Shown piece by piece: positions 4,022 through 60,861 of a DNA stretch of 64,000 nucleotides (its first letter is position 1; every line of letters starts with the position of its first letter). The DNA lies in the NCBI RefSeq assembly GCF_014207705.1, contig NZ_JACHIU010000001.1, positions 4,146,501-4,210,500 of the forward strand, read 5' to 3'. A program made the translations under genes and the position numbers. Below the pieces are notes generated by a model. It was given only the letters and a program-made list of their open reading frames with translations. It was not told where the DNA came from and did not search any database. This stretch comes from Sphaerisporangium rubeum (GTDB lineage Bacteria; Actinomycetota; Actinomycetes; Streptosporangiales; Streptosporangiaceae).

Positions 4022-5386
4022 ATGCGGGTCCTGATCCAGTTGCGTCCCGATCCCGATCTCGTCACCGCGGTGGCGACCCCCGGCATGACGGCGACCACCG
4101 CCGACGTGGCCGGGGAGTTGCCGGGGGTCGACCTCGACCTCGGTTTCACGCCGGTCGTGGTGCCCCGCGCGCGGCCCGCCGCGCCGGACGGCGACCCGTT
4201 GTCGCTGCACCAGCCGCTGGTCTTCTCCATGGCGGCCGAGGAGGCGTCGGTGCTGGTGCGCGGCGAGATCGCCGACGACGAGAGCACGACGCGCATGGCG
4301 ATGCTGCACACGCGGCACCGCGACGTCGTCGGGGTGTACGCCGACCCGGTGATCGAGACAACGCTGACATGTGGCGGTTCCCCGCCGGTGGGGTCCTGGC
4401 AGGACGTCGAGCGGCTGATGGCGGTGCGTGAGCTGCTCGCCGAGGGGTGCGACGGCACGGGGGTGGCGCTGGCCGTCTGCGACACCGGCGTCAACGCGGC
4501 GCACGTCACGCGCAAGATCGGCCGCGAGTGCGTGATCGATCACGAGCGGAGCTGGAACCCCGCCGGTGTCGAGGGCAGGCCCGGCGCGTTCGAGGTGGAC
4601 CACGGCACGATGTGCGCCTTCGACGCGCTGATCTGCGCGCCGCGCGCCTCGGTGATCGACGTCCCTGTGCTGCTGTCGCGGCGCAAGGGCGAGACGGTGA
4701 TGGACGGCCTGCTGTCCGACGCCGTCGCCGCCTTCGCGCACCTGCGCACGGTGCTCGACGCGCAGCCCGAGGACCGGCGGGCCCTGGTGGTCAGCAACAG
4801 CTGGGGGTCGTTCTCCCCGCTGTGGGACCTGCCGCCTGGCCGGCCCGGCAACTACTCCGACAACCCCGCGCACCCGTTCAACATCATCGTCGGCAGCCTC
4901 GCGCAGGCCGGCGCCGACATCCTGTTCGCGGCCGGCAACTGCGGGGCCGAGTGCCGCGACGCGCGCTGCGCCTACCCGCGACGGCCCATCGTCGGCGCCA
5001 ACTCCCACCCGCAGGCGCTGTCCATCGGCGGGGTCGACACCAACGGCCGGCGCGTCGGTTACTCCTCGCAGGGTCCCGGCCGGCTCAGCGACCGCAAGCC
5101 CGACATCTGCGCCTACACCCACTTCGCCGGCTCCGAGGCCTTCGGCGACGGCAAGCCCGACTCCGGCACCTCGGCCGCCTGCCCCGTGGCGGCCGGCCTG
5201 GTGGCCGCCGTCCGCACCCGCTGGCCCGCCTCGGTCCTGCCGCCGGCGCAACTGCGTGCCCTCCTGCAACGCACCGCCGAGGACCGCAGCGACGTGGGTT
5301 ACGACTACGACTACGGATACGGCATCACCGACCCGGTCGCGCTCCTCGCCGCCTTGGAACGCCGCGCGTCGGCGTTCGTCCACTGA
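4022..5386 (+). CDS. S8 family serine peptidase (subtilase), no signal peptide
   Basis: The protein has 454 residues. ATG at 4022 is chosen because GAGGTGG (4008-4014) sits seven bases upstream; an in-frame start at 3983 has no such site. The triad is readable: Asp154 in CDTGVNAAH, His194 in VDHGTM and Ser384 in SGTSAACP. The oxyanion-hole Asn is in FAAGNCG. About 140 residues with no recognised domain precede the catalytic domain. There is no signal peptide, so the enzyme is either cytoplasmic or exported by a non-classical route. The catalytic domain has several Cys (around GNCGAECRDARC). A small gene follows after 129 bp. The substrate is unknown. Confidence 0.88.
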   Translation: MRVLIQLRPDPDLVTAVATPGMTATTADVAGELPGVDLDLGFTPVVVPRARPAAPDGDPLSLHQPLVFSMAAEEASVLVRGEIADDESTTRMAMLHTRHRDVVGVYADPVIETTLTCGGSPPVGSWQDVERLMAVRELLAEGCDGTGVALAVCDTGVNAAHVTRKIGRECVIDHERSWNPAGVEGRPGAFEVDHGTMCAFDALICAPRASVIDVPVLLSRRKGETVMDGLLSDAVAAFAHLRTVLDAQPEDRRALVVSNSWGSFSPLWDLPPGRPGNYSDNPAHPFNIIVGSLAQAGADILFAAGNCGAECRDARCAYPRRPIVGANSHPQALSIGGVDTNGRRVGYSSQGPGRLSDRKPDICAYTHFAGSEAFGDGKPDSGTSAACPVAAGLVAAVRTRWPASVLPPAQLRALLQRTAEDRSDVGYDYDYGYGITDPVALLAALERRASAFVH

Positions 5387-5431
5387 TCCCGCGTCGCATC
5401 GCCGGGCCGTGACGTGCCGCATGCCGACCCG

Positions 5432-5497
5432 CCGTCCCGGCCGGACCGTGGCGTGGCGGGTGGTCATGTACCGTCACGGCCGGACCGTGGCGTGGCG
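5432..5497. repeat. Pair of 27-bp direct repeats between the subtilase and the small gene
   Basis: Bases 5432-5458 and 5471-5497 match at 26 of 27 positions, with a 39-bp period. They lie in the leader of the small gene at 5516. They could be a regulator-binding pair, or one of the many short tandem duplications seen across this window. Confidence 0.7.
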
Positions 5498-5515
5498 ATC
5501 ACGTAACGTGGTGCC

Positions 5516-5746
5516 ATGGTCCTGATCACCGTGCATCTGCCGACCGGTGCGACCCTGGCCGACGCTCGGCGCGAGCTCGGCCTCACCGAGGAGGAAGTGG
5601 ACGACGCCTACGGCCTCGTCCCCCTTGACCCCGGCCAGGGCCTGTACGCCTTGCGGGTCACCGAACCCGCCGCGCGCCGCGCCGCACCCCCCGGCGGCGG
5701 CCCTTACTCCGACCCGCCGATCGAGCCGTTCGGGCCTCCCCGGTGA
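5516..5746 (+). CDS. Small protein of unknown function, 76 aa
   Basis: The product begins MVLITVHLPTGATLADARREL and ends in a Pro-rich tail (PYSDPPIEPFGPPR). Residues 1-55 have the charge and hydrophobic pattern of a small folded domain: a beta-strand, an acidic helix LTEEEVDDAY, then another strand. There is no membrane segment. No clear Shine-Dalgarno sequence precedes ATG at 5516; an in-frame GTG lies slightly upstream. It stands alone downstream of the subtilase and could be its partner, inhibitor or substrate (inference from position only). I do not recognise the family. Confidence 0.6.
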   Translation: MVLITVHLPTGATLADARRELGLTEEEVDDAYGLVPLDPGQGLYALRVTEPAARRAAPPGGGPYSDPPIEPFGPPR

Positions 5747-5812
5747 CCCGGAACGGCGGGAAGCGCTCGGTCCCGGCCCGGCGGGGACCACGCACCGTCG
5801 AAAGGCGCGCGG

Positions 5813-6427
5813 CTAGCGCGAGTAGTGCTCGACGACGAGCTGTTCGTCGACGGGAAGCCGGATCTGTGCGCGTTCCGGCTTGGCGGTGAGCGTGAAGGTC
5901 AGGTTCGCGAGGTCCGCCGTCAGGTACGGCGCGGTGACCTCGTCGGCGTGCACGCCTTCGGCGGCGGCGACGAACGGCTGCATCGCGCGCGACTTCGGCC
6001 GGACCGCCACCACCTGGCCGGGTCGCACCAGGTAGCTCGGGATGTCGACCTTGCGGCCGTCCACGGTGATGTGGCCGTGGCCGACGTACTGGCGTGCGGC
6101 GTAGATGGACGGCGCGAGCCCGGCTCTCAGCACCAGCGACGCGAGGCGGCTCTCCAGGATGGCCACCAGCTCGGCCCCGGACCTGCCGGGCCGGCGCCGC
6201 GCGAGGGCCCAGTACCGGCGCATCTGCTTCTCCGACACGTCGTAGTACCAGCGCAGCTTCTGCTTCTCCAGCCGGCGCACGCCGTAGTCCCCGGCCGTGC
6301 GGCGGCTGGTCGTGCGGCCGTGCTCGCCGGGTGGGTAGGGCCGCGCCTCGAAGTAGCGGACGGCCTTGCGGGTCAGCGGGACCCCTGCTCTGCGTGACAG
6401 CCGCACCTTGGGACCGGTGTAGCGCAC
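5813..6427 (-). CDS. rpsD: Ribosomal protein S4 paralogue lacking the zinc-binding cysteines
   Basis: S4 binds 16S rRNA and starts assembly of the small ribosomal subunit. The protein starts RYTGPKVRLSRRAGVPLTRK and keeps the S4 features RPYPPGEHGR, LEKQKLRWYYDVSEKQ, an S4 RNA-binding domain (RQYVGHGHITVDGRKVDIPSYLV) and a C-terminus ERAQIRLPVDEQLVVEHYSR. The zinc-binding cysteines near the N-terminus of the usual actinobacterial S4 are absent (no Cys at all). I prefer GTG at 6427 (204 aa), because GAGG at 6433-6436 is correctly spaced and the protein then begins MRYTG like canonical S4. GTG at 6433 would place that site inside the gene. The gene is far from any ribosomal protein cluster, so it is probably a second, conditionally used copy. 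An iron-box region lies just upstream. Confidence 0.9.
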   Translation of the reverse strand: MRYTGPKVRLSRRAGVPLTRKAVRYFEARPYPPGEHGRTTSRRTAGDYGVRRLEKQKLRWYYDVSEKQMRRYWALARRRPGRSGAELVAILESRLASLVLRAGLAPSIYAARQYVGHGHITVDGRKVDIPSYLVRPGQVVAVRPKSRAMQPFVAAAEGVHADEVTAPYLTADLANLTFTLTAKPERAQIRLPVDEQLVVEHYSR

Positions 6428-6443
6428 GATCACCTCACTGTGG

Positions 6444-6477
6444 TTAGGTAAGCCTTACTTAGGTAACCCTAACATCA
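6444..6477. promoter_or_regulatory. Two overlapping iron boxes (IdeR/DmdR/DtxR type)
   Basis: Bases 6444-6462 read TTAGGTAAGCCTTACTTAG, matching about 15 of 19 positions of the actinobacterial iron box TTAGGTTAGSCTAACCTAA. A second, weaker copy begins 15 bp later (6459-6477) and shares the central TTAGG. The site lies between the divergent S4 paralogue and DUF2470 gene, at promoter distance from both. Binding of iron-loaded repressor would shut both genes off in iron-replete cells (inference). Confidence 0.7.
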
Positions 6478-6527
6478 GTGCCGACGTGGCCGCGGGACCA
6501 CCCGCGACGAGAACCAGGAGCATCACC

Positions 6528-7259
6528 ATGCACGTCACGGTCCCGCCGATCTCCGAGCGCGTCCGGGGCCTGGCCCTGACCGCCGCACCCACCCACGTCT
6601 CCCTGGACGGCACCGCGCACACGGCCCGCGGCGCGGTGGACGAGGCCGGCCGTCCCCTGCTGCTGGTCCGGCCCGGCGAGCCGCTGCACACCCTGCGGGA
6701 CGAGGCCGTGGTGACCGTGGACCTCACCGCCACCCGCGCTCTGGCCGGGATCGACCACCCTCGCGGCCTGCTGAAGATCCAGGGCTGGGCCGAGGCCGTA
6801 CCGGAGGCGGGCCTGCGGGCCGCGGCGGTGGCGGTCGCCGCGCGCTGTCCCGACGAGTCCCTGTTCGCCGCCGTCGAGAACGACCCGGCGGGACCACGGC
6901 TGTTCCAGGTGGACGTCGCACAGGTGATCTACCTGACCGGCCAGGAGTCAGGCATGCTGGACGCCGAGGATTACTTCGGCACCGGTCCCGACCCGCTGCT
7001 GGAGGCGGCCGAGCGCATGCTGGCGCACGTCAACGGGTCTCATCGCGAGCAGTTGCACGGCGCGCTCGCCGTCCTGCTCGGCCACCCGGTGCGGGACGCG
7101 TGGCTGTGGGAGCTGGACCGCTACGGCGTGACCGTGCGCTCCGGCGTCGAGGACCCCACCCTCATCCGCCTGCCGTGGCCCTCACCGGTGACCACCCCGC
7201 ACGCTCTGGAGCGCGCGCTGGCCGCCATGCTCTGCCCCCACGAGCGCCGCCGACCGTAG
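6528..7259 (+). CDS. DUF2470 protein, HugZ/split-barrel-like, putative iron or heme enzyme
   Basis: The protein has 243 residues. ATG at 6528 is chosen for the AGGAG at 6516-6520. The N-terminal two thirds resemble the flavin-reductase-like split barrel of pyridoxamine-phosphate-oxidase relatives. The C-terminus is a DUF2470 domain (about residues 155-240; LLEAAERMLAHVNGSHREQL). This architecture is that of HugZ-like heme-degrading or heme-binding proteins, and in actinomycetes it is common near siderophore genes. An iron box directly upstream supports a role in iron or heme use. Heme-ligand residues are not proven here. The 3' end overlaps the convergent ROK regulator by 78 bp. Confidence 0.75.
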   Translation: MHVTVPPISERVRGLALTAAPTHVSLDGTAHTARGAVDEAGRPLLLVRPGEPLHTLRDEAVVTVDLTATRALAGIDHPRGLLKIQGWAEAVPEAGLRAAAVAVAARCPDESLFAAVENDPAGPRLFQVDVAQVIYLTGQESGMLDAEDYFGTGPDPLLEAAERMLAHVNGSHREQLHGALAVLLGHPVRDAWLWELDRYGVTVRSGVEDPTLIRLPWPSPVTTPHALERALAAMLCPHERRRP

Positions 7260-8423
7260 CGCCGTGTCCACGGCCTCCGGTGCGAGGATGTGGTCGATCA
7301 CCATGAGCGCGCAGCCGACGATGCCGGCGGACGGGCCGAGGCGGGTGCGCTCCACGCGCAGGCTGCGGGTGGCCAGGGCCGTGGAGCGGCGGTGCACGAC
7401 CTCGCGCACGGCCGACACCAGGGGCTGGAAGCTCTCTGTGACGTCGCCGCCGAGGACGACGACGGCGGGGTTGAGCAGGTTGACGGCGCTCGCCACCACC
7501 TCGCCGAGGAGGCGGCCGGCGCGGCGCACCACCGCCATGGTCTCGGCGTCACCGGCGCGCACCAGCGTGACGACGTCGGCGAGTGAGGAGACCTCGCGTC
7601 CGCGGGCCCGCAGGTCGCGCAGGATGGCGGTGCCGCTGGCCACCGAGTCGACGCAGTCGATGTTGCCGCATCTGCACAGCACGCCGCCGCCGTCGCGCAC
7701 GGGGATGTGGCCGATCTCGCCGGCGGCGCCGAGCGCGCCGCGCAGGATGCCGCCGCCGGCGATGACGCCGGCGCCGATGCGGGTGGAGACCTTCACGAAC
7801 AGCAGGTCGTCGACCTCGGGTGCGTACGCGGCGCGGTATTCCCCCATCGCGATCACGTTGACGTCGTTGTCGACGAACACCGGCACCGGGTAGCGTGCCG
7901 CGACGATCGGCGGGATGATCACGCCGGTCCAGCTCGCCATGACGCGCGCGCTCTCGACGCGGCCCGCGGCGAACTCCACCGTCGCCGGCATCCCCATGCC
8001 GACCCCGCGCACCGACGACAGGGGCCGGTCGCCGAGCAGGCCGGCCCAGTGGTCCATCAGCAGCGGCAGCACCACGTCGGGGCCGCGCTCGACGTCGATC
8101 TCCAGCTCGGTGCGGGCCAGCTCGCGGGCCGCCAGGTCGCACATCGCGATCTGCGTGCGTCCCGCGCCGAGCGAGGCGACGAGCACGACTCCCCCGGTCG
8201 CGTCGAACCTGAGCCGGGCCGGCGGCCTGCCTCCGGTGGAAGGGCCCTCGGTGTCCTCGACCACGAGGCCGTGCTCCAGCAGCTCGCCGACCCGCAGGGC
8301 CACGGCGGGCCGGGACAGCCCGGTGACCCGGCCGATGTCGGCGCGGGTGACCGCCTCACCCGACCTGATCAGGCCGAGCACGTCACCGCTGGTGGCCAGC
8401 GTGGCCGCTGATCGTCGCCGCAC
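7182..8423 (-). CDS. ROK-family transcriptional repressor
   Basis: The protein has 413 residues. A winged-helix DNA-binding domain (residues 1-75; TRADIGRVTGLSRPAVALRVGEL) is fused to a sugar-kinase-like ROK domain. The ROK domain carries the zinc signature GHIPVRDGGGVLCRCGNIDC and the GIVGCALM C-terminal region. ROK repressors sense sugars or sugar phosphates and often control adjacent catabolic genes. This gene diverges from edd-glk-eda with 291 bp between the starts, so it is the best candidate regulator of that operon (inference). The effector is unknown; glucose, gluconate or KDPG are reasonable guesses. The 3' end overlaps the DUF2470 gene. Confidence 0.88.
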   Translation of the reverse strand: MRRRSAATLATSGDVLGLIRSGEAVTRADIGRVTGLSRPAVALRVGELLEHGLVVEDTEGPSTGGRPPARLRFDATGGVVLVASLGAGRTQIAMCDLAARELARTELEIDVERGPDVVLPLLMDHWAGLLGDRPLSSVRGVGMGMPATVEFAAGRVESARVMASWTGVIIPPIVAARYPVPVFVDNDVNVIAMGEYRAAYAPEVDDLLFVKVSTRIGAGVIAGGGILRGALGAAGEIGHIPVRDGGGVLCRCGNIDCVDSVASGTAILRDLRARGREVSSLADVVTLVRAGDAETMAVVRRAGRLLGEVVASAVNLLNPAVVVLGGDVTESFQPLVSAVREVVHRRSTALATRSLRVERTRLGPSAGIVGCALMVIDHILAPEAVDTALRSAALVGAEHGGQRALQSVRGGHR

Positions 8424-51329: not shown

Positions 51330-51498
51330 AACCCCACACTTGGTAATCAGATCATCGCTGACGCACACCGTAGCGTTCCACGCACCGCCGCGCGAGGGGG
51401 GAGAACGCCGGGGGATCGGCGGGAGTTTGCCGGTGCTTGCCCAGCTCTTTCCCCTCTCGCGGGGCCTTGTGTGGGTGTGGCGGCAGTAGCCTTTGCGA

Positions 51499-52854
51499 AT
51501 GTCCCGCCGACGCGTCCCCCTGTGGCCCCGCACGATCAGAGGACAGGTCACGTTCCTCGCGCTCGTGCTGACCACGGTGTTCCTGACCCCCCTGGGTCTG
51601 GCGGCGGACGCGGTGATCAGGAGCGCCGTCGCGCAGTCGCTCTGGCGCGAGACCAGGAGCGTCGCGGCCCGCACCGTCGACGCCTACCAGGAGGCGAGGC
51701 TGCGCAACCCGATCCCCGTCCCGGCGGGGTCACGGGTCCTCGTGCAGGTGATCGGGCCGGGGAACCACGTGCTGGCCGCCTCGGAGTCCGCCGCCGGCCT
51801 GCCGGTGCTCGCGAGCCCGCCGTCCGGGCTCCCCGACCGCGCGATCGACTTCCGTACCTGCCCGGCTGGCCGCAGAGAGTGCTACCACGCCACGGCGATC
51901 CTCACCGGGAGCCGCGCGGAAGCGCCTGTGGTGTACGCCGCCGCGCGGACACCCGGTCTGCTGCGGGGCCACCTCATCGACATCTCGATCGGCGTGCAGG
52001 TCGCGCTGCTCGTCGGGCTGGCCGGCTGGGTGGCCGCCAAGGCCACGGGCCGCGCACTCGGCACGATCGACAACATCAAGGCGGAGCTGGCGCACATCAC
52101 CGCGAGCGACCTGTCGCGCCGGGTGTGCGAACCGCCTGGCGACGACGAGATCTCGGGGCTGGCCCGCACCGTCAACTCCACCCTGGCCCGGCTGGAGCAC
52201 TCGGTGGAGCAGCAGCGCCGTTTCGCCGCCGACGCCTCCCACGAGCTGCGCACCCCCATCGCCGGCCTGCGCGCGCAGCTGGAGGACGCCTGGCTGTACC
52301 CCGAGGACACCGATCTGCGGAGCCTGGTCCAGGGGACGCTGCGCGACACCGACCGCATCGAGACCATCATCACCGACCTGTTGTTCATGGCGCGCCTCGG
52401 GTCCAGCGGCCCCGCCGTGCAGGAGCGGGTGGATCTCGGCCGTCTGACCGCCGAGGAGATACGGCGCTGCGGGGAGCGGGTACCGGTCGCTGCGGACCTC
52501 CAGGACGACGTCATGGTGCACGGCGTGCCGACCCACCTCGTCCGGGTCGTCGCCAACCTGCTGGACAACGCGCAGCGGCACGCCGACCGCCAGGTCACCG
52601 TGCAGGTACGCGCCACGCGCGGCACGGCCGTGCTGTCGGTGACCAACGACGGCGACCGCATCCCGGTCGAGGACCGCGAACGGGTCTTCCAGCGGTTCAC
52701 CCGCCTGGACGAGGCACGCAGCAGGAACCGCGGCGGCACGGGCCTCGGGCTCGCCATCGCCAGGGACGTCGCCATCGCGCACGACGGGACGCTGCGGGTG
52801 GAGGACTGCTCGACCGGCACGAGATTCGTGCTGAGACTGCCGGTCGCGGAGTGA
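51499..52854 (+). CDS. Orphan sensor histidine kinase
   Basis: The protein has 451 residues. Two membrane helices (about 18-42 and 158-180) flank an extracytoplasmic sensor with two Cys (FRTCPAGRRECYHA). A HAMP domain, HisKA (phospho-acceptor His248 in DASHELRTPIAGL) and HATPase (LLDNAQRHAD; GGTGLGLAIARD) follow. No response-regulator gene is adjacent on either side. ATG at 51499 has no clear Shine-Dalgarno sequence; TTG at 51493 is an alternative. The two sensor cysteines could form a disulfide. Confidence 0.9.
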   Translation: MSRRRVPLWPRTIRGQVTFLALVLTTVFLTPLGLAADAVIRSAVAQSLWRETRSVAARTVDAYQEARLRNPIPVPAGSRVLVQVIGPGNHVLAASESAAGLPVLASPPSGLPDRAIDFRTCPAGRRECYHATAILTGSRAEAPVVYAAARTPGLLRGHLIDISIGVQVALLVGLAGWVAAKATGRALGTIDNIKAELAHITASDLSRRVCEPPGDDEISGLARTVNSTLARLEHSVEQQRRFAADASHELRTPIAGLRAQLEDAWLYPEDTDLRSLVQGTLRDTDRIETIITDLLFMARLGSSGPAVQERVDLGRLTAEEIRRCGERVPVAADLQDDVMVHGVPTHLVRVVANLLDNAQRHADRQVTVQVRATRGTAVLSVTNDGDRIPVEDRERVFQRFTRLDEARSRNRGGTGLGLAIARDVAIAHDGTLRVEDCSTGTRFVLRLPVAE

Positions 52855-52970
52855 CGGCGGGAACAGGGCTCCCCAAGAGTTAACAGGAGCGACGGCGGGT
52901 GTTCAGCTCCGGCTCCCCTTACCGGTGAGGACCGGTGGTTAGCGTGCCTGACACCCACGAGCGTGCCTAG

Positions 52971-52994: not shown

Positions 52995-53009
52995 ATCAGG
53001 GAGTCACTA

Positions 53010-55094
53010 GTGCGAGTCCTGGCCGTCGTCCCCGCCCGCGGAGGTTCCGTAGGCGTCCCGCTGAAGAACCTCGCGAAGGTCGGGGGTCTGCCCCTGGTCA
53101 CCCGCGCGGTGAACGCCTGCGTCGCGGCCGGGCTCGTGGACGAGGTCGTGGTCAGCACCGACCACGCCGGCATCGCCGAGGCCGCCGCGGCGGCCGGCGC
53201 GCGGATCGTGGACCGGCCCGCCGGGCTGAGCGGCGCCACCGCCTCCTCCGAGTCCGCCGTGCTCCACGCGCTCCACCAGCTCGCCGGCACCGGTGAGCCC
53301 GAGGTCGTCGTGCTGGTGCAGTGCACCAGCGCCTTCATCGATCCCGCCGACCTGGACGCCGCGGTGGCCAAAGTCCTCGCCGGGGAGGCCGACGTGGTGT
53401 TCTCCGCCGTGGAGACCCACGAGTTCGTGTGGAACCAGGCCGGCGCCGGTGTCGGCGGCGTCAACCACGACCCGGCGCACCGGCCGCGCCGCCAGGACCG
53501 CGCACCCGAGTACCGCGAGACCGGCGCCTTCTACGTCATGCGCGCCGCGGGCCTGCGCGAGCACGGCCACCGCTTCTTCGGCGCCGTCGCCGTCCAGACC
53601 GTGCCGGCCGGCCACGCCGTGGAGGTCGACACCCCCGGCGACCTGGAGATCGTCCGCGCGCTCGCCCCCGTCGTGGACCGGCCGGGTCCCATCGACGTGG
53701 ACGCCGTGATCACCGACTTCGACGGTGTGCACACCGACGACCACGTGTACGTCGACCAGGAGGGCCGCGAGGCCGTCGCGGTGTCCCGTTCCGACGGCCT
53801 CGGCTTCGACCTGCTGAAGCGGGCCGGGGTGAAGGTGCTCGTGCTGTCCACCGAGCGCAACCCGGTGGTGACGGCGCGCGCGCGCAAGCTCGGCGTGCCG
53901 GTGCTCCAGGGGCTGTCGGCCAAGCACACGGCGCTGCGCGACTGGCTGAGCATCGAGGGCCTGGACCCGGCGCGGGTCGCCTACGTCGGCAACGACGTCA
54001 ACGACCTCGGCTGCCTGGACCTGGTCGGCTGGCCGGTGGCCACCCCCGGCGCGCACCCCCGGGTGCTGGCCGCCGCGCGGGTCGTGCTGACCCGAGCGGG
54101 TGGCGACGGCGCCGTGCGTGAACTGTGCGACCGCGTGCTCGCCGCGCGTCCCGGCGGGCCGGCACCCACCGCGCCGGCCGTCCGCGCCGCCGTCCCCGCT
54201 CCGCGCACGCCGCGGGTCCAGGCCGCTCCCGTCGGCATCGGCGGGTCGCTCGTCGGGCCGGGGCAGCCGGTGTACGTCATCGGTGAGATCGGCATCAACC
54301 ACAACGGCGACCTGGACATCGCGCGCCGCCTCATCGACGTGGCCGCCGACGCCGGCTGCCAGGCCGTGAAGTTCCAGAAGCGCACCCCGGAGATCTGCGT
54401 GCCGGTCGAGCAGCGCGACCTGATCCGGCAGACGCCGTGGGGTGAGATGACCTACCTGGAGTACAAGCACCGGGTGGAGTTCGGCGCCGCCGAGTACGCC
54501 GAGATCGGCCGGTACTGCGCCGAGCGCGGCATCGACTGGTTCGCCTCCCCGTGGGACGTGCCGTCGGTGGACTTCCTCGAGGACATGGACGTCGTCGCGC
54601 ACAAGGTCGCCTCGGCGAGCGTCACCGACCTGGAGCTGCTGCGCAGGCTCGCCGATACCGGCAAGCCGCTCATCCTGTCGACCGGCATGTCGACCCTGGA
54701 GGAGATCGACACGGCCGTGGAGATCCTCGGCACGTCCAAACTCGTGATGATGCACGCCACCTCGACCTACCCGCTGCCTCCCGAGGAGGCCAACCTGCGC
54801 GCGATCGTGACGCTGCGCGAGCGGTACGGCGTGCCGGTGGGGTACTCCGGCCACGAGCGCGGCCTGCAGATCTCGCTGGCGGCGGTCACCCTCGGCGCGG
54901 TGACCGTCGAGCGGCACATCACGCTGGACCGGACGATGTGGGGCTCCGACCACGCCGCCTCGCTGGAGCCGAGCGGCCTGGAGCACCTGGTGCGCGACAT
55001 CCGCATCATCGAGACCGCGCTCGGCGACGGGGTCAAGCGGGTGTTCCCCGGCGAGGAGGCCCCGAAGTCCCGGCTGCGCCGCGTGACGGTCTGA
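53010..55094 (+). CDS. Three-domain nonulosonate enzyme: NeuA-type cytidylyltransferase, HAD phosphatase, NeuB-type synthase
   Basis: The protein has 694 residues; GTG at 53010 after AGGGAG. Residues 1-228 are a CMP-acylneuraminate cytidylyltransferase (VVPARGGSVGVPLKNL, LVQCTSAFIDPADLD). Residues 230-385 are a KdsC-like HAD phosphatase (D236-F-D238, LSTERNP, GNDVNDLGCL). After an Ala/Pro linker, residues 420-694 are the NeuB TIM barrel (IGEIGINHNGD, VKFQKRTPEI, STGMSTLEEID, GYSGHERG). The SAF (antifreeze-like) domain that normally ends NeuB is missing; the protein stops after KSRLRRVTV. One chain could therefore condense PEP with a sugar phosphate, dephosphorylate, and activate the nonulosonic acid as CMP-sugar. 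Streptomyces coelicolor has a comparable locus for Kdn-containing teichulosonic acid with separate genes, so Kdn is a plausible product (inference). Confidence 0.92.
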   Translation: MRVLAVVPARGGSVGVPLKNLAKVGGLPLVTRAVNACVAAGLVDEVVVSTDHAGIAEAAAAAGARIVDRPAGLSGATASSESAVLHALHQLAGTGEPEVVVLVQCTSAFIDPADLDAAVAKVLAGEADVVFSAVETHEFVWNQAGAGVGGVNHDPAHRPRRQDRAPEYRETGAFYVMRAAGLREHGHRFFGAVAVQTVPAGHAVEVDTPGDLEIVRALAPVVDRPGPIDVDAVITDFDGVHTDDHVYVDQEGREAVAVSRSDGLGFDLLKRAGVKVLVLSTERNPVVTARARKLGVPVLQGLSAKHTALRDWLSIEGLDPARVAYVGNDVNDLGCLDLVGWPVATPGAHPRVLAAARVVLTRAGGDGAVRELCDRVLAARPGGPAPTAPAVRAAVPAPRTPRVQAAPVGIGGSLVGPGQPVYVIGEIGINHNGDLDIARRLIDVAADAGCQAVKFQKRTPEICVPVEQRDLIRQTPWGEMTYLEYKHRVEFGAAEYAEIGRYCAERGIDWFASPWDVPSVDFLEDMDVVAHKVASASVTDLELLRRLADTGKPLILSTGMSTLEEIDTAVEILGTSKLVMMHATSTYPLPPEEANLRAIVTLRERYGVPVGYSGHERGLQISLAAVTLGAVTVERHITLDRTMWGSDHAASLEPSGLEHLVRDIRIIETALGDGVKRVFPGEEAPKSRLRRVTV

Positions 55095-55133
55095 CCGGGT
55101 GACCAGACCGTTGACCGTCCGCGGAGACCGCCG

Positions 55134-56093
55134 GTGATCACCCTTTCCGTGGTGGTGCCGGTGCGCGACGCCGAGCCGTACATCGCCGACGCGCTCACGT
55201 CGCTGACGCGCAACGCGCGCGCCGACTTCGAGTTCATCGTGGTCGACGACGGCTCGGCGGACGAGACCCCGCTGATCGTCGAGGACTTCCGCGGCGAGCT
55301 GCCCGGCCTCACCGTGCTGCGCAACACGGTGGCGGCCGGGCTGGCCGACGCGCGCAACCTCGGCCTGTCCCTGGCGTCCGGACGGTACGTCACGTTCCTC
55401 GACGGCGACGACTGGGTGGCGCCGGGGTACCTGGCCCGCCTGGTCGAGGCCGTCGACGGGCTCGGCTGCGATTTCGTGCGGGTGGACCACGTGCAGGTGG
55501 AGGGCCGCAGACGCGTGCTGAACCGCGCGCCTGAACACCGGCGGGGGGTGGTGCTGCCGCCGCGTGAGGGGATCCTGCCGTCGAACACCAAGACGATGGT
55601 CGACTACCCCTACGCGTGGGCCGGGATCTACCGGCGCGACCTCGGCGACCTGCTGACCTTCCCCGGCCACCTGCACACCGCCGAGGACCGGCCGTGGATC
55701 TGGCGGCTGCACCGCGAGGCGCGGTCCTTCGCGGCGGTGTCGCTCGCCGGGGTGTTCTACCGGCGGCTCGTGCCGAACTCGCTCACCCGGATCGGCGACG
55801 AACGCCAGCTCCACTTCTTCGACGCCTTCGAGCTGGTCTTCGCGCAGGTCCGCGACGAGGAGGACCTGCTGCCGAAGGCGGTCCGCAGCTTCTGCGCGCT
55901 GCTGGCCCACCACCTGGAGCTGTCGGACCGGTACTCCCCCGAACTGCGGCGGCGCTTCACCGCGCGGGCCGGCGAGGTGCTGGCCGGCCTGCCTCCCGCG
56001 CTGGTGGCGGGAAGCGGGCTGGAGCCCGAGCGGGCCGAGCTGCTTCGTCCCCTGCTTCCCGACGACGTCTACGCCGAGGTGCGCCTGCCGTGA
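55134..56093 (+). CDS. Family 2 glycosyltransferase of the wall-glycopolymer locus
   Basis: The protein has 319 residues. GTG at 55134 follows GGAG. The GT-A core shows VVVPVRDAEPYIADAL, VVDDGSADET and FLDGDDW (DxD). The C-terminal third (AEDRPWIWRLHREA) carries the acceptor side. It is 39 bp downstream of the nonulosonate enzyme and overlaps the next gene by GTGA, so all three are one operon. It probably adds the second sugar of the repeating unit. Confidence 0.9.
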   Translation: MITLSVVVPVRDAEPYIADALTSLTRNARADFEFIVVDDGSADETPLIVEDFRGELPGLTVLRNTVAAGLADARNLGLSLASGRYVTFLDGDDWVAPGYLARLVEAVDGLGCDFVRVDHVQVEGRRRVLNRAPEHRRGVVLPPREGILPSNTKTMVDYPYAWAGIYRRDLGDLLTFPGHLHTAEDRPWIWRLHREARSFAAVSLAGVFYRRLVPNSLTRIGDERQLHFFDAFELVFAQVRDEEDLLPKAVRSFCALLAHHLELSDRYSPELRRRFTARAGEVLAGLPPALVAGSGLEPERAELLRPLLPDDVYAEVRLP

Positions 56094-57367
56094 CCCAGGT
56101 CTTCTACAGCTCGACGCTGTTCGGCGCGATGACGCTGGCCGCCGCCGTGGACGAGGGGAGGTTCGGGCCGCACACGGGACGGCGGCTGCTGCTGGTGTCG
56201 AACAACGCCGCCATCCCGGAGATCACGCCGGGGGTGGACGAGACCGAGGGGTTCGCGGCGATCCGGGCCCGGTTCGACGAGGTGCGGTCGTGGAACGAGA
56301 TCGTGGCGCCGCTGCACCCGTCGGACTGGAAGGCGCGCCAGGCCGAGCTGCCGATGCTCGGCCGCCTGCTGCTGCGCGACCTCGGCCTCGGCGACGGGCC
56401 GGCGGAGCTGGTCGTCGAGTCGATCGCGGTGCCGCCGTCGCGCACGCTCGCCGCGCTGATCCGCGACTGCCCGATCACGGTGTACTCCGACGGGCTGATG
56501 AGCTACGGCCCGACCCGCGACCCGCTGCCGGCGGAGATCGCCGGCCGGATCACCCGGCTGCTTCACCTGGACCTCGTGCCGGGTCTCGCGCCGCTGCTGC
56601 TGCGCGAGGCCGGGGTGGCGCCGCAGGCGATACCGGACGCCGCGTTCGCCGGGGTCATCGACGCGATCGGCGCGCCGGACGGCCTGGAGGGCGAGGCGGT
56701 GATCCTCGGGCAGTACCTGGCGGCGCTCGGCATCCTCAGCGACGAGGAGGAGGCCGCGACGCACGCGGCCATGCTGGAGGCCGTGGCGGCGCGCGGCCAC
56801 CGCACGGTGCTGTTCAAGCCGCACCCGGCGGCCGGACGGCGGCACGCGAGACGCCTGCGGACGGCGGCGGAGGCGCTCGGCGTGGACCTGCGGGTCGCGC
56901 CGGAGACCGTCCCCGCCGAGGTGTGCGTCAAGGCGCTGCGGCCCCGGCTGGTCGTGGGCTGCTTCTCCACCGCGCTGGTCACCTCGCGGCGGCTGTTCGG
57001 CGCGCGGGTCGCCACGATGGGCTGCGAGACCGTCCTTGAACGGCTCACACCGTACGAGAACAGCAACAGGATCCCCGCCACGATCATCGACGCGACCCTC
57101 CCCCGGCTGGCGCGCGACGGCTCGATCACCGATCCGCCGGCCGCCGACCTGCCGGGCCTGGTGGAGGCCGTCGGCTACTGCATGCAAAGCGAGCAGTACC
57201 CCGGCCTGCGGGAGGCCGCGGTGCGGTACCTCGCCGCGCACGGCCCGCAGGCCCGGTACTTCAAGAGCCGCCGCCTCAGCGCGCTCGGCCTCGTCGAGGT
57301 CCCCCCGCCGCACAGGCCCGGCCGCGGCGGCGCGCTCGGCCGCCTGCGCCGCGCGCTCACCCGCTGA
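56090..57367 (+). CDS. Polysialyltransferase-like enzyme
   Basis: The protein has 425 residues. GTG at 56090 overlaps the GT2 stop. The motifs of bacterial sialyl/polysialyltransferases are visible: an acidic-Gly motif in YSDGLMSYGP, the HP motif in FKPHPAAGRR, and a Ser/Thr motif in GCFSTALVTSR. These use CMP-nonulosonic acids as donors, which the first gene of the operon would provide. It is the best candidate for polymerising or attaching the nonulosonate. No signal peptide, so it works on the cytoplasmic face. Confidence 0.85.
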   Translation: MTQVFYSSTLFGAMTLAAAVDEGRFGPHTGRRLLLVSNNAAIPEITPGVDETEGFAAIRARFDEVRSWNEIVAPLHPSDWKARQAELPMLGRLLLRDLGLGDGPAELVVESIAVPPSRTLAALIRDCPITVYSDGLMSYGPTRDPLPAEIAGRITRLLHLDLVPGLAPLLLREAGVAPQAIPDAAFAGVIDAIGAPDGLEGEAVILGQYLAALGILSDEEEAATHAAMLEAVAARGHRTVLFKPHPAAGRRHARRLRTAAEALGVDLRVAPETVPAEVCVKALRPRLVVGCFSTALVTSRRLFGARVATMGCETVLERLTPYENSNRIPATIIDATLPRLARDGSITDPPAADLPGLVEAVGYCMQSEQYPGLREAAVRYLAAHGPQARYFKSRRLSALGLVEVPPPHRPGRGGALGRLRRALTR

Positions 57368-57494: not shown

Positions 57495-58715
57495 TCAGGA
57501 CATCGCCTTCAGGTAGCGGCGCATGCGGCGGCTCGCGCGGTAACCGGCGCGCATGACGTTCGGCGGCAGCTCCACGCGCAGACGCGCGCGCCTGCGCGCG
57601 GCGGCGTGCGCCGGTCCGTCGAGCAGGGGACGCGGCGCGGGGAGGCGGCCGGCGCGCGCGTCGTCCACCAGTGCGGCGACCCGGGGCACCCAGTCGCTGG
57701 CCGACGGGTCGTGGAAGTAGTTGGCGTCGCACCAGGCGCCGGTGGGCCGCCGGAAACCCGCGGCGGTGAGCTCCTCCAGAGTGCCGAGGCAGCCGCTGTC
57801 CTCGAACACCAGGTTGATCATCTCGGCGCTCACCCCGAAGTCCGACAGCACGAGCAGCGGCACCCCGGCGGCGATGGCCTCCAGCGCGGCGGTCGAGCTC
57901 ACCGTGACGAAACCCGCCGCCTCGGCCAGCTGATCGCGCATCGCCCCCGCGGCGAACCGCACCGCTCCCTCCGGCACCGCGCCGGCCGCGGCCAGGTCAC
58001 GCCACAGCCGCTCGTAGTGGTGCCGCTCGTTGTGGGTCTGCCGCTCGGTCTCCAGGGCCCGCAGCTTCACCACCACGTCGAGGTCGGGACGGCGCGCGGC
58101 CAGCGCGGCGAGCGCCATCAGGACCGACTCGCGCTCCTCGCGCCGCCGCGGCACCTTGGCCTGGGTCGCGAACACCACCCGGCGGCCGGTCCCCGCGGTC
58201 ATCGGCCGGCCGGTGACGTGGTCGAGGTAGGGCAGCCTCGCCAGGGCGACGGCGCCGGTCGCGCCGAGCTCCTTGCCGATGCGGCCGAACTCGGCGACCT
58301 CCTTGCCGCTGTGCACGACGAACAGGTCGCACGCGCCGCGGTACAGCCAGGCCTTCTCCGTGGCGGGGATCGAGATCCCCGGCAGGCCCGACACGAACAC
58401 CGGCCGCGGGCTCATGCCGCCGAGAACGCCGCTGACCAGCACGTCGACCACGGGTCCTGTGCAGGCGACGAGCACCACGTCGGGCCTGGTCCGCTCGGCG
58501 AGACGGCGCAGCCCGCGCGCCGAGGCCACGACCGGCGGCTCGCCGCCGCCGAGGCGGGTGCCGCTGACCGCGGCCGCGATCTGCGCGGCGGACGGGGTGA
58601 TCGGCGTGCGCACGACGGCGAGCGTCCGCGTCCATTCCGCCGGAAGCTGGTCGAGCAGGCCCGCCGCCCATTTCAGATAGCTGTCGGAGTCGGCGACGGC
58701 GAGAACCCGGGTCAA
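57495..58715 (-). CDS. Putative glycosyltransferase (DUF6716-like) of the wall-glycopolymer locus
   Basis: The protein has 406 residues. TTG at 58715 overlaps the stop of the preceding gene (TTGA), and MTRVLAVADSDSYLKWAAGLL is a natural N-terminus. The protein resembles GT-B enzymes: VFVSGLPGISIPATEKAWLYRGACDLFVVHSGKEVAEF in the first half, KLRALETERQTHNERHHYE and FVTVSSTAALEAIAAGVPLLVLSDFGVSAEMIN in the second, like nucleotide-binding C-domains. Actinobacterial teichulosonate-type loci carry this type beside NeuA/NeuB. The exact sugar is unknown. Confidence 0.72.
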   Translation of the reverse strand: MTRVLAVADSDSYLKWAAGLLDQLPAEWTRTLAVVRTPITPSAAQIAAAVSGTRLGGGEPPVVASARGLRRLAERTRPDVVLVACTGPVVDVLVSGVLGGMSPRPVFVSGLPGISIPATEKAWLYRGACDLFVVHSGKEVAEFGRIGKELGATGAVALARLPYLDHVTGRPMTAGTGRRVVFATQAKVPRRREERESVLMALAALAARRPDLDVVVKLRALETERQTHNERHHYERLWRDLAAAGAVPEGAVRFAAGAMRDQLAEAAGFVTVSSTAALEAIAAGVPLLVLSDFGVSAEMINLVFEDSGCLGTLEELTAAGFRRPTGAWCDANYFHDPSASDWVPRVAALVDDARAGRLPAPRPLLDGPAHAAARRRARLRVELPPNVMRAGYRASRRMRRYLKAMS

Positions 58716-59743
58716 GGAGCAGCCCTTTCGTGCGCGAACATCTGCAGGTGCGACCGGAGCGAGGCGGTGGCCGATGGGGTCCACCAGTCGTCCGGGACGT
58801 CGACGGTCTCCACCCGCACGCCGCGCGCCGACAACAGCACGCGCAGCGACGTCACCGCGGTGGAGGGAAGGCTGAGCACACGCTGGCCGGGACGCAGGTC
58901 GCGCAGCGTCATCTCGACCGGCGCGCCGCCGTCGTACACGGTGACCCCCGGATGCTCGCGCACCGCGGCGAGATCGCCGGGATCCTCCCGCCGGTGCGGA
59001 TAGTACGCCACCGGGCCTTCGAGCGCGAAGAGCCAGGACAGGTAGCGGTCCCGGTGGATCAGGCCGTTGCGTACCAGCGACGTGCCGAGCACGACGGTGC
59101 TCTCGGGGGGACGGGGATGCGCGGCGGCGGGCTGGGAACGCAGCCACGCGAAGTCGTGCGTGACCAGCTCGGCTCCGGTGTCCCTGACGGACGCGGCCAG
59201 CGCGGCGGGTACGGGCAGCGCGGTGAAGATCGTGAGCCGGCCGGACCTGGCGGCGGCGCGCAGCCGCAGTGAGGCGGCGGCGCCGAGCGCGCGGCGCGTC
59301 CAGGTGGCGGTGGTCCTGGCCCGCAGCAGCGGCGTGCCGGGACGCGCGGTCAGCAGTTCGAGCAGCCGGATCGTGGCGAGCCCGTCGTCGACCACCACCA
59401 GGTGGCGCGGCGCGGCGCCGAGCGAGGTGAGCTGCACACGGCCGGAGAAGGCGTCCCCCAGCACCCAGGACTCGCGGCGGCCCGGCCGGGGCATGTGGTC
59501 ACCCGCGGTGGACAGGCGCAATCCGTCCGGCAGGGCCAGCGCGGCGAGCTCGGTGCGGGTCACCCGCAGGCCCGGCAGCTTCCCTCTGGCCACCACCTGG
59601 AGATCGGGCCCCACCACTCCGGCGTACCGCGCCTCGACCGCGCAGAGCAGCTGGAGTGGCGACTCCACCCAGGCGACGGCCGGACCCTGCTCCCGCACGC
59701 GGCTTCGACCGATCCTCTCCACGCCGGGTGATGAGACGTTCAC
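58712..59743 (-). CDS. Putative sialyltransferase-like (GT52-like) protein
   Basis: The protein has 343 residues; ATG at 59743. No clear signal peptide or membrane helix. Motifs are spaced as in nonulosonate transferases of the GT52/polysialyltransferase type: LVVVDDG (acidic-acidic-Gly), YYPHRRED (His motif, with Arg in place of the usual Pro) and LSLPSTAVTSL (Ser/Thr). It is the first gene of a two-gene operon convergent with the nonulosonate operon and probably adds or primes the CMP-linked sugar. Family assignment is by motif only. Confidence 0.65.
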   Translation of the reverse strand: MNVSSPGVERIGRSRVREQGPAVAWVESPLQLLCAVEARYAGVVGPDLQVVARGKLPGLRVTRTELAALALPDGLRLSTAGDHMPRPGRRESWVLGDAFSGRVQLTSLGAAPRHLVVVDDGLATIRLLELLTARPGTPLLRARTTATWTRRALGAAASLRLRAAARSGRLTIFTALPVPAALAASVRDTGAELVTHDFAWLRSQPAAAHPRPPESTVVLGTSLVRNGLIHRDRYLSWLFALEGPVAYYPHRREDPGDLAAVREHPGVTVYDGGAPVEMTLRDLRPGQRVLSLPSTAVTSLRVLLSARGVRVETVDVPDDWWTPSATASLRSHLQMFAHERAAP

Positions 59744-60183: not shown

Positions 60184-60861
60184 TTGTCAACGTTCACGCA
60201 GCGACTCATGGATGCCCCCCGACATCGCGTGATCGGCATGGCCCTCGGCGGGCTGATCCTCGCCCAGGTGGCGACCGGCACCGCCCTCGCCCACGCCGAC
60301 ACCCCTCCCGGTGACACGCTCGCCAAGGTCGCCTCGGCCGAGGCGCACGGCGCTCCGCGCTCCGAGGCCCGGGTCACCGCCGCACAGGTGCTCGACCTCG
60401 CGAGGAAGCAGGTCGGCATCACGGAGAACAGCCTCGGTGGCGGCACCAAGTTCCACGCGTGGTACATGAGCAGTCCCCGCGCGGTCGAGACGATCGCCAG
60501 GGACACCGGCAAGATCTCCGACTACGCCAACGCGCCGTGGTGCGACATGTTCGTCTCGTGGATCGGCGAGCAGCTCGGCATCCAGGACACGATGGGGCAG
60601 GACGCCTACACCGTGCAGCACGCCAAGTGGTTCGAGTCGCAGGGCCGGTTCGGCTCCGCGCCGAAGCCCGGCGCTGTGGCGTTCTTCGCCTGGAGCGGCG
60701 GCGGCATCGAGGCCATCGAGCACGTCGGCTTCGTCGTCAAGGACAACGGCGACGGCACCATCGAGACGATCGAGGGCAACACGGGCAACGGGAAGGTCGA
60801 GATCCGCAACCGGCCGACCTACCAGGTGGCCGGCTACGGCTACCCCGCCTACGCGACCTGA
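60184..60861 (+). CDS. Secreted CHAP-domain peptidoglycan hydrolase
   Basis: The protein has 225 residues. TTG at 60184 is eight bases after AAGGAG. A signal peptide (about residues 1-38, VIGMALGGLILAQVATGTALAHA) is followed by a CHAP (Cys/His amidohydrolase-peptidase) domain with Cys120 in NAPWCDMFVSW and His180 in IEHVGFV. The C-terminal IEGNTGNGKVEIRNR is typical. It should cut peptide or amide bonds in peptidoglycan outside the cell. The c-di-AMP riboswitch in its leader ties it to wall and osmotic control. Confidence 0.92.
   Translation: MSTFTQRLMDAPRHRVIGMALGGLILAQVATGTALAHADTPPGDTLAKVASAEAHGAPRSEARVTAAQVLDLARKQVGITENSLGGGTKFHAWYMSSPRAVETIARDTGKISDYANAPWCDMFVSWIGEQLGIQDTMGQDAYTVQHAKWFESQGRFGSAPKPGAVAFFAWSGGGIEAIEHVGFVVKDNGDGTIETIEGNTGNGKVEIRNRPTYQVAGYGYPAYAT

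Follow-up and report, generated by a model that had tools for sequence, protein, structure and literature searches.

A fused NeuA, HAD phosphatase and NeuB gene of Sphaerisporangium rubeum, predicted to form CMP-Kdn, and its NeuB branch lacking the SAF domain

We analyzed a stretch of 64,000 nucleotides of the Sphaerisporangium rubeum genome (assembly GCF_014207705.1, contig NZ_JACHIU010000001.1, positions 4,146,501 to 4,210,500; hereafter the window, to which all coordinates refer). In it, NeuA, a KdsC-like HAD phosphatase and a NeuB without the C-terminal SAF domain are joined in a single gene. The fused chain is genuine and conserved, and it falls within a pathway type already known. We predict that it encodes a trifunctional enzyme that would convert mannose-6-phosphate (Man-6-P) and phosphoenolpyruvate (PEP), through the 9-phosphate of 3-deoxy-D-glycero-D-galacto-non-2-ulosonic acid (Kdn-9-P) and free Kdn, into the sugar activated with cytidine monophosphate (CMP-Kdn); the probability of this reading is roughly 0.62. 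Its NeuB belongs to a branch from which both SAF and the acid at the position of Glu134 in Neisseria NeuB appear to have been lost; as judged from sequence comparison, this co-loss is new here.

The fused gene and its domains

The gene and its parts are as follows.
53010-55094, forward strand: fused gene NeuA, HAD phosphatase and SAF-less NeuB, 694 amino acids (domain searches; conserved in relatives)
53010-53657, forward strand: NeuA (CMP-sugar synthetase) domain, residues 1-216 (Pfam CTP_transf_3, NCBIfam PseF)
53694-54155, forward strand: KdsC-like HAD phosphatase domain, residues 229-382 (NCBIfam match)
54156-54260, forward strand: Ala/Pro-rich, poorly conserved linker, residues 383-417 (conservation line, split genes)
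54261-55079, forward strand: SAF-less NeuB barrel (PEP-condensing), residues 418-690 (Pfam PF03102, AlphaFold2 model)
54378-54383, forward strand: codons of Lys457-Arg458 (motif KFQKRT), conserved; proposed acceptor-phosphate site
54618-54620, forward strand: codon of Ser537, the counterpart of Glu134 in Neisseria NeuB (alignment comparison)

The open reading frame (ORF) starts with GTG, and its GC content by codon position (0.77, 0.48 and 0.96) is of the coding type. Chance was excluded because the protein is found with 78-84% identity over its full length in 56 other genomes. An antisense frame of 968 amino acids (53007-55913) overlaps the gene. The original prediction, made from the DNA alone, described three successive steps encoded in reverse domain order in one protein, and the Pfam and NCBIfam domains on this single ORF bear it out. 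Pfam CTP_transf_3 matched residues 5-140 (E = 5.9e-20), and the PseF-type NeuA model of NCBIfam (TIGR03584) and its KdsC model matched residues 4-215 and 230-380, both with scores under their cut-offs. PF03102 was matched over its full length (1-241 of 241) at residues 441-676 (E = 4.9e-83). The NeuB_NnaB equivalog TIGR03569 reached 271.8 bits (cut-off, 399.65) and was covered up to position 277 of 329. Directly after NeuB the chain ends in RLRRVTV, and the end was the same (RLRR plus three or four residues) in all 30 close copies compared (the window's own and 29 more, together the best 30 of 57).

Absence of the SAF domain

NeuB enzymes are known as domain-swapped dimers, each active site being completed by the SAF domain of the other subunit. 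This domain, usual though not universal at the C-terminus in the PF03102 family, is missing from the window NeuB, which ends before it, as had been predicted. Among the Pfam matches of the fused protein (to E = 1), no SAF followed NeuB. The SAF profile PF08666 had no match at E = 0.001 in the S. rubeum genome (single contig, 7.5 Mb, 99.07% complete); the control for this search was positive in 8 of 14 control genomes. The genome contains one full-length NeuB match and two weak partial matches. No SAF was found in the 29 close homologues (Pfam), nor in any of the 80 named loci (home-made SAF profile; the best 80 of 582 confirmed relatives, to which all counts of named loci refer). A SAF domain elsewhere in the locus and close homologues with a C-terminal SAF were the two findings named beforehand as refuting; both were sought and neither turned up.

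A NeuB branch with a different active site

The comparison of residues included 172 NeuB rows (116 SAF-less and 56 SAF-bearing). At the Glu134 position, an acid was present in none of the SAF-less rows and in all of the SAF-bearing ones. The Lys457-Arg458 pair was present in 115 of the 116 SAF-less rows and in 2 of 47 SAF-bearing rows without a HAD; it was also present in all nine SAF-bearing rows linked to a HAD, eight of which had been fetched because of that HAD. Nine positions that we take to be the PEP, metal and sugar sites (Glu25, Lys53, Lys129, Ser132, Ser154, Tyr186, His215, His236 and Asp247 in Neisseria numbering) were kept in 111 of 111 SAF-less sequences. Further marks of the main SAF-less group were Arg473, the hairpin TPWG.MTY, YSGHE and MWGSD. 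The whole active site seems to have been remodelled, because loss of SAF goes with loss of the acid at position 134; on this evidence, the active site of the branch differs more deeply than the original prediction saw.

Of 111 SAF-less NeuBs, 101 had a KdsC-like HAD no further than 3 kb away, as had 1 of 48 SAF-bearing NeuBs. The SAF-less set came from several phyla and was gathered by similarity to SAF-less queries; the SAF-bearing set, before Bacteroidota were included, was drawn from Actinomycetota only. A rule equating SAF absence with a phosphorylated acceptor was near perfect with these controls but was broken by Bacteroidota NeuBs that lie beside Kdn-9-P-phosphatase-like genes, 8 of 13 usable ones retaining SAF. 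The 14 Bacteroidota loci read were chosen for a relative of the Kdn-9-P phosphatase, so that linkage to a HAD was given by construction (60 and 15 genomes matched); Bacteroides thetaiotaomicron itself was outside the sample, and the best matches to its phosphatase were 64% and 67% identical. The rule was therefore replaced by a model of two features. Because eight of these Bacteroidota NeuBs carry SAF, the phosphate route needs no loss of SAF, provided that the phosphatase is a marker of that route, and a different sugar alone is no explanation of the missing lid. The proposal that the enzyme must use either another lid or a different sugar was thus right in that SAF is truly absent, but too simple as an explanation.

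In a tree of 146 rows, a single superclade (support 96) took in every row with the Lys-Arg pair; inside it, the main SAF-less group (84 rows, support 99) stood apart from a Bacteroidota SAF-less group (5 rows, support 100). Two losses of SAF are suggested by this tree, although one loss is possible. The tree left out 28 Streptomyces rows and had fewer fused rows than the 170-row tree described below; rows dropped were that of L216 (a cut locus, SAF-bearing) and the long frames in L207 and L208 (a NeuB-like start followed by another domain). The SAF-less branch was present in several bacterial phyla and in one archaeal metagenome-assembled genome (among the best 80 of 582 relatives). We found no published description of it among the open-licence papers searched.

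The two halves of the fused chain (NeuA-HAD and NeuB) were modelled separately. AlphaFold2 modelled NeuB confidently as a barrel (pLDDT 91.8), in which two short strands span model residues 62-65 and 68-71, within protein residues 472-481. The fold matches of this model were 6ncs, Neisseria NeuB and PseI, followed by the synthases of 3-deoxy-D-arabino-heptulosonate 7-phosphate (DAH7P) and 3-deoxy-D-manno-octulosonate 8-phosphate (KDO8P), enzymes whose acceptors are phosphorylated and which are not known to have a SAF lid. KFQKRT may act like KANRS, a motif of KDO8P synthase. The acceptor's phosphate is probably bound by the Lys-Arg pair that follows the PEP lysine.

Evidence on the sugar

The original prediction placed the Man-6-P and Kdn-9-P route foremost among the candidates to be tested, and we agree. 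At the positions of Glu56 and Lys67 of the Bacteroides Kdn-9-P phosphatase, the window HAD has Glu and Lys, each of which was retained in 102 of 103 HADs (the window's included). Three KdsC or KdsC-like chains (3ij5, 3i6b and 2p9j) have Arg and Thr/Glu instead; the contrast is with KdsC-type chains, Neu5Ac-9-P phosphatases (for N-acetylneuraminic acid, Neu5Ac) being outside the comparison. The same two residues were mutated in the Bacteroides enzyme, as given by the PDB titles of 4hgq (E56A) and 4hgr (E56A/K67A). The nearest solved HAD chain was 3mmz of Streptomyces avermitilis. Among solved NeuA chains, the best match by both sequence and fold was 9t4z, a CMP-Kdn synthetase, followed on both counts by 1qwj, the mouse CMP-Neu5Ac synthetase. 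No NeuC-type epimerase was found in the S. rubeum genome, where the sole Epimerase_2 match was of the WecB type. The genome has one gene of the bact-PGI_C family, which we take to include phosphomannose isomerases. Characterized Kdn-9-P synthetases take Man-6-P, and one of them accepted only this one of the seven sugars assayed (PMC6200933).

Several results weigh against the Kdn pathway that we propose for the fused chain. The Kdn-9-P phosphatase model NF058599 scored 81.4 bits (cut-off, 180), lower than the KdsC model (98.9 bits; cut-off, 208), and the NeuB, KdsC and Kdn-9-P phosphatase models all remained under their curated cut-offs. Phosphatase activity of the HAD is not assured, because an Asn in motif IV (Asn328, 53991-53993; Asn in 88 of 103 HADs) replaces Asp103 of the Bacteroides phosphatase, presumably a magnesium ligand; the Asp residues that flank Asn328 are retained. 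No match to type I phosphomannose isomerase was found in the genome, and the bact-PGI_C protein could be glucose-specific. Ten of the 111 SAF-less NeuBs lack a HAD within 3 kb, the association between HAD and SAF reflects few evolutionary events in differently drawn samples, and SAF is retained in eight of the 13 Bacteroidota NeuBs mentioned. Profile comparison with KDO8P synthase (Escherichia coli KdsA) gave no meaningful alignment. Nor do the polymer genes occur everywhere: in the stretches read of loci L060-L065, from other actinobacteria, DUF6716-like neighbours were present without a match to GT2 (glycosyltransferase family 2) or to the polysialyltransferase-like gene.

Distribution and origin of the fusion

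In an order-level sample of 150 genomes, 77 had any match to the fused protein. The match was uninterrupted over the whole protein in 57 of them (S. rubeum included), 11 had the halves as separate genes, and the other nine had contig-end fragments or distant paralogues only. All 11 split loci showed the same order: NeuA-HAD, then SAF-less NeuB, GT2 and a PF07388-like gene. The linker (residues 383-417) coincides with the boundary between the two separate genes of relatives. In a phylum sample of 396 genomes, 49 matched at 1e-20; besides the window, only two full-length matches were found, both with a stop between the halves. In a NeuB tree of 170 rows, the 14 fused rows formed one group (support 97) nested inside the split rows. 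Because the fused rows group in this way, the fused chain arose once in this sample, by the joining of adjacent neuA-HAD and neuB genes, and its reverse domain order is the old gene order because neighbouring genes were joined. The one-chain factory first proposed is thus real but not unique: it is a fusion spread across the lineage, joining two adjacent genes whose pair was found in several phyla.

The named loci included many Streptomyces. NeuA and HAD were in one frame in 57 of the 80, the HAD was separate in 15, and eight had none.

Other fusion forms were observed apart from that of the window. Locus L072 (genome G501) has a Streptomyces-like NeuA-NeuB fusion without a HAD (668-amino-acid frame, 5331-7334, minus strand), and a second NeuA and NeuB copy of similar kind is listed for the same genome. 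Two Bacteroidota frames of approximately 600 amino acids (L209, 2813-4612, forward strand; L210, 5850-7646, reverse strand) combine a partial NeuA-type match with NeuB and SAF, adjoin a HAD and represent a further form. The SAF-bearing NeuBs of L073 and L175 have an extra C-terminal part of approximately 280 residues.

Gene neighbourhood

The neighbouring features are as follows.
52879-52922, forward strand: Pho-box-like upstream element, with GTTAA and GTTCA at a distance of 22 nt that keeps the phase of an 11-nt repeat
55134-56093, forward strand: GT2, next in the cluster (Pfam PF00535)
56090-57367, forward strand: alpha-2,8-polysialyltransferase-like protein (Pfam PF07388, 1.4e-24; predicted start)
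57495-58739, reverse strand: DUF6716 putative glycosyltransferase (Pfam PF20471, 2.3e-132; predicted start)

At the window locus, NeuA and NeuB stand with polymer transferases in a conserved order, as in teichulosonic-acid clusters. GT2 directly followed NeuB in the 11 split loci and in three fused loci, and DUF6716 homologues were present in part of the relatives' stretches read. Seven Streptomyces-like loci had the same gene set (GT2, polysialyltransferase-like and DUF6716-like), with NeuA-HAD and NeuB apart in six of them. The cluster SCO4873-4882 of S. coelicolor is described as a PhoP-controlled teichulosonic-acid cluster (PMC13011467), and the region had earlier been reported as a neuAB-holding locus (PMC2267785); Streptomyces teichulosonic acid contains galactose and Kdn (PMC11481543, PMC7831098). 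The pathway context was thus previously known in Streptomyces, and by analogy the window neighbourhood resembles this Kdn polymer cluster of phosphate starvation. For Planobispora rosea, also of the Streptosporangiaceae, the accessible part of a Pho-regulon table lists a sialic acid synthase as the SCO4880 orthologue and has no SCO4881 orthologue (PMC8269224), which is what a fusion would predict. Among the papers listed, none gave wall chemistry for this family.

The motif GTTMA-N17-GTTCA, with a spacing of exactly 22 nt, was found upstream of 30 of 30 genes (the window's and 29 relatives'). The published Streptomyces Pho box consists of 11-nt repeats of GTTCACC (PMC4415409); pair scores against this model barely exceeded those of shuffles, and the match to the consensus was imperfect. 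The shuffle rate of the 22-nt pattern gives no fair P value, because the pattern was picked after the alignment had been viewed. Pho control of the fused gene is likely, though only as a prediction from this element.

Just upstream of the fused gene lies a sensor histidine kinase (51493-52854, forward strand); the scan of neighbouring frames revealed no response regulator. A CHAP-domain protein (60184-60861, forward strand), possibly a wall hydrolase, is encoded downstream of the sugar cluster.

Proposed mechanism

In the pathway that we propose, the phosphate of Man-6-P would be held at Lys457-Arg458, with PEP and Mn bound as in NeuB, and the NeuB domain would condense PEP and Man-6-P to Kdn-9-P. 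The TPWG hairpin (TPWGEMT in the window) is a candidate substitute lid that would shut the active site together with the MWGSD loop. Kdn-9-P would then pass to the middle HAD domain of the same chain and lose its 9-phosphate, and Kdn would pass to the N-terminal NeuA domain to be coupled to CMP. The neighbouring transferases may build from it a phosphate-free, Kdn-containing wall polymer of the teichulosonic-acid type under phosphate shortage. The acid at position 134 would form one unit with SAF and its arginine, and both would have been lost together.

The extension of this scheme to the whole branch is more doubtful. We suggest only tentatively that SAF-less NeuBs with the Lys-Arg pair are distinct and widespread Kdn-9-P synthases using Man-6-P, in which SAF and the acid at 134 form one unit, the TPWG hairpin serves as the lid and binding of the acceptor relies on its phosphate, as it does in KDO8P and DAH7P synthases. 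With so large a branch devoid of SAF and of an acid at position 134, comparison can test what each of them does. The branch also points to Kdn-type sugars in groups (Chloroflexota and Chlorobiota, for example) in which, to our knowledge, these sugars have hardly been studied. The chain, three enzymes in one, could serve as a compact catalyst that makes CMP-Kdn from Man-6-P, PEP and cytidine triphosphate.

Alternative explanations

An animal-like phosphate route with an N-acetylated sugar (N-acetylmannosamine-6-phosphate to Neu5Ac-9-P, Neu5Ac and CMP-Neu5Ac) is unlikely. The Neu5Ac synthase model TIGR03569 gave the window NeuB its best score, a polysialyltransferase-like gene adjoins and a mouse CMP-Neu5Ac synthetase was the runner-up among NeuA structures; against this, the only Epimerase_2 match was not of the NeuC type (ManNAc kinases, for N-acetylmannosamine, were not searched for), Kdn is the sugar found in Streptomyces teichulosonic acid (PMC11481543, PMC7831098), and the SAF whose arginine was mutated in 4ipi and 4ipj (PDB titles) is absent. 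That arginine (Arg314 of Neisseria NeuB) presumably contacts the N-acetyl group. Just as improbable is another nonulosonate or octulosonate (pseudaminic- or legionaminic-like, Kdo-like or an unknown sugar). The original prediction likewise allowed for a different sugar, and the best-scoring models were the pseudaminate one (TIGR03584) for NeuA and KdsC for HAD, all below cut-off; however, the HAD has Glu where KdsC-type chains carry Arg, a Pfam scan of 20 neighbouring frames showed no enzyme for a diamino precursor, and the Streptomyces relatives look like a Kdn polymer cluster.

Two further explanations concern the NeuB domain itself. If a SAF-like or other lid were supplied in trans, the chemistry of the SAF-less NeuB would be ordinary. 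A SAF match was present somewhere in all 10 same-genus genomes other than that of the window, but the complete S. rubeum genome has none at E = 0.001, the SAF frames of three same-genus genomes in which the fused gene could be placed were on other contigs, and the Glu134 position has lost its acid as well; we regard this explanation as very improbable. We give still less credence to a relic or regulatory barrel that has lost PEP condensation. The SAF with Arg314 and the Glu134 of Neisseria NeuB, both of which we take to be important there, are missing, yet the NeuB domain is strongly conserved, and so are the PEP, metal and sugar positions in all 111 SAF-less sequences compared. A trifunctional CMP-Kdn-forming enzyme remains the reading that we prefer.

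Comparison with known systems

The NeuB of Neisseria meningitidis (1xuu, 4ipi, 4ipj) shares with the window NeuB the barrel fold (TMq 0.85) and the PEP and metal residues, but it possesses SAF and Glu134, and its PEP lysine is not followed by a basic pair. The nearest solved chain, the Leptospira nonulosonic acid (NulO) synthase 6ncs, is 36% identical, lacks the TPWG hairpin and the Lys-Arg pair and retains an Asp at 134; its crystallized chain of 290 residues is also too short for SAF, possibly as a cut construct. For the mouse CMP-sialic acid synthetase (1qwj, 3ewi), structures are likewise known of a NeuA domain and of a KdsC-like HAD domain at the C-terminus; this enzyme has no NeuB part and is not known to have phosphatase activity. 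In L. interrogans, a fusion of the NulO pathway has a C-terminal endonuclease-like domain (PMC3438082), which the extra part in L073 and L175 perhaps resembles.

The Kdn pathway of Bacteroides thetaiotaomicron (Kdn-9-P synthase BT1714, phosphatase and CMP-Kdn synthetase) has three equivalent steps and the same HAD specificity residues, and the NeuBs of loci with related phosphatases have the Lys-Arg pair. It differs in that 8 of 13 synthases (relatives, not BT1714 itself) have SAF and the acid at 134, and in that synthase and phosphatase are in separate frames in the SAF-bearing Bacteroidota loci. In gene content the window locus resembles SCO4873-SCO4882 of S. coelicolor, to which it is linked through the named Streptomyces loci, relatives and cited papers rather than through S. 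coelicolor sequences. The Streptomyces-like relatives combine NeuA-HAD and SAF-less NeuB with GT2 and with genes like those for polysialyltransferase and DUF6716; six of the seven such loci encode NeuA-HAD and NeuB separately, whereas in the window they form one gene.

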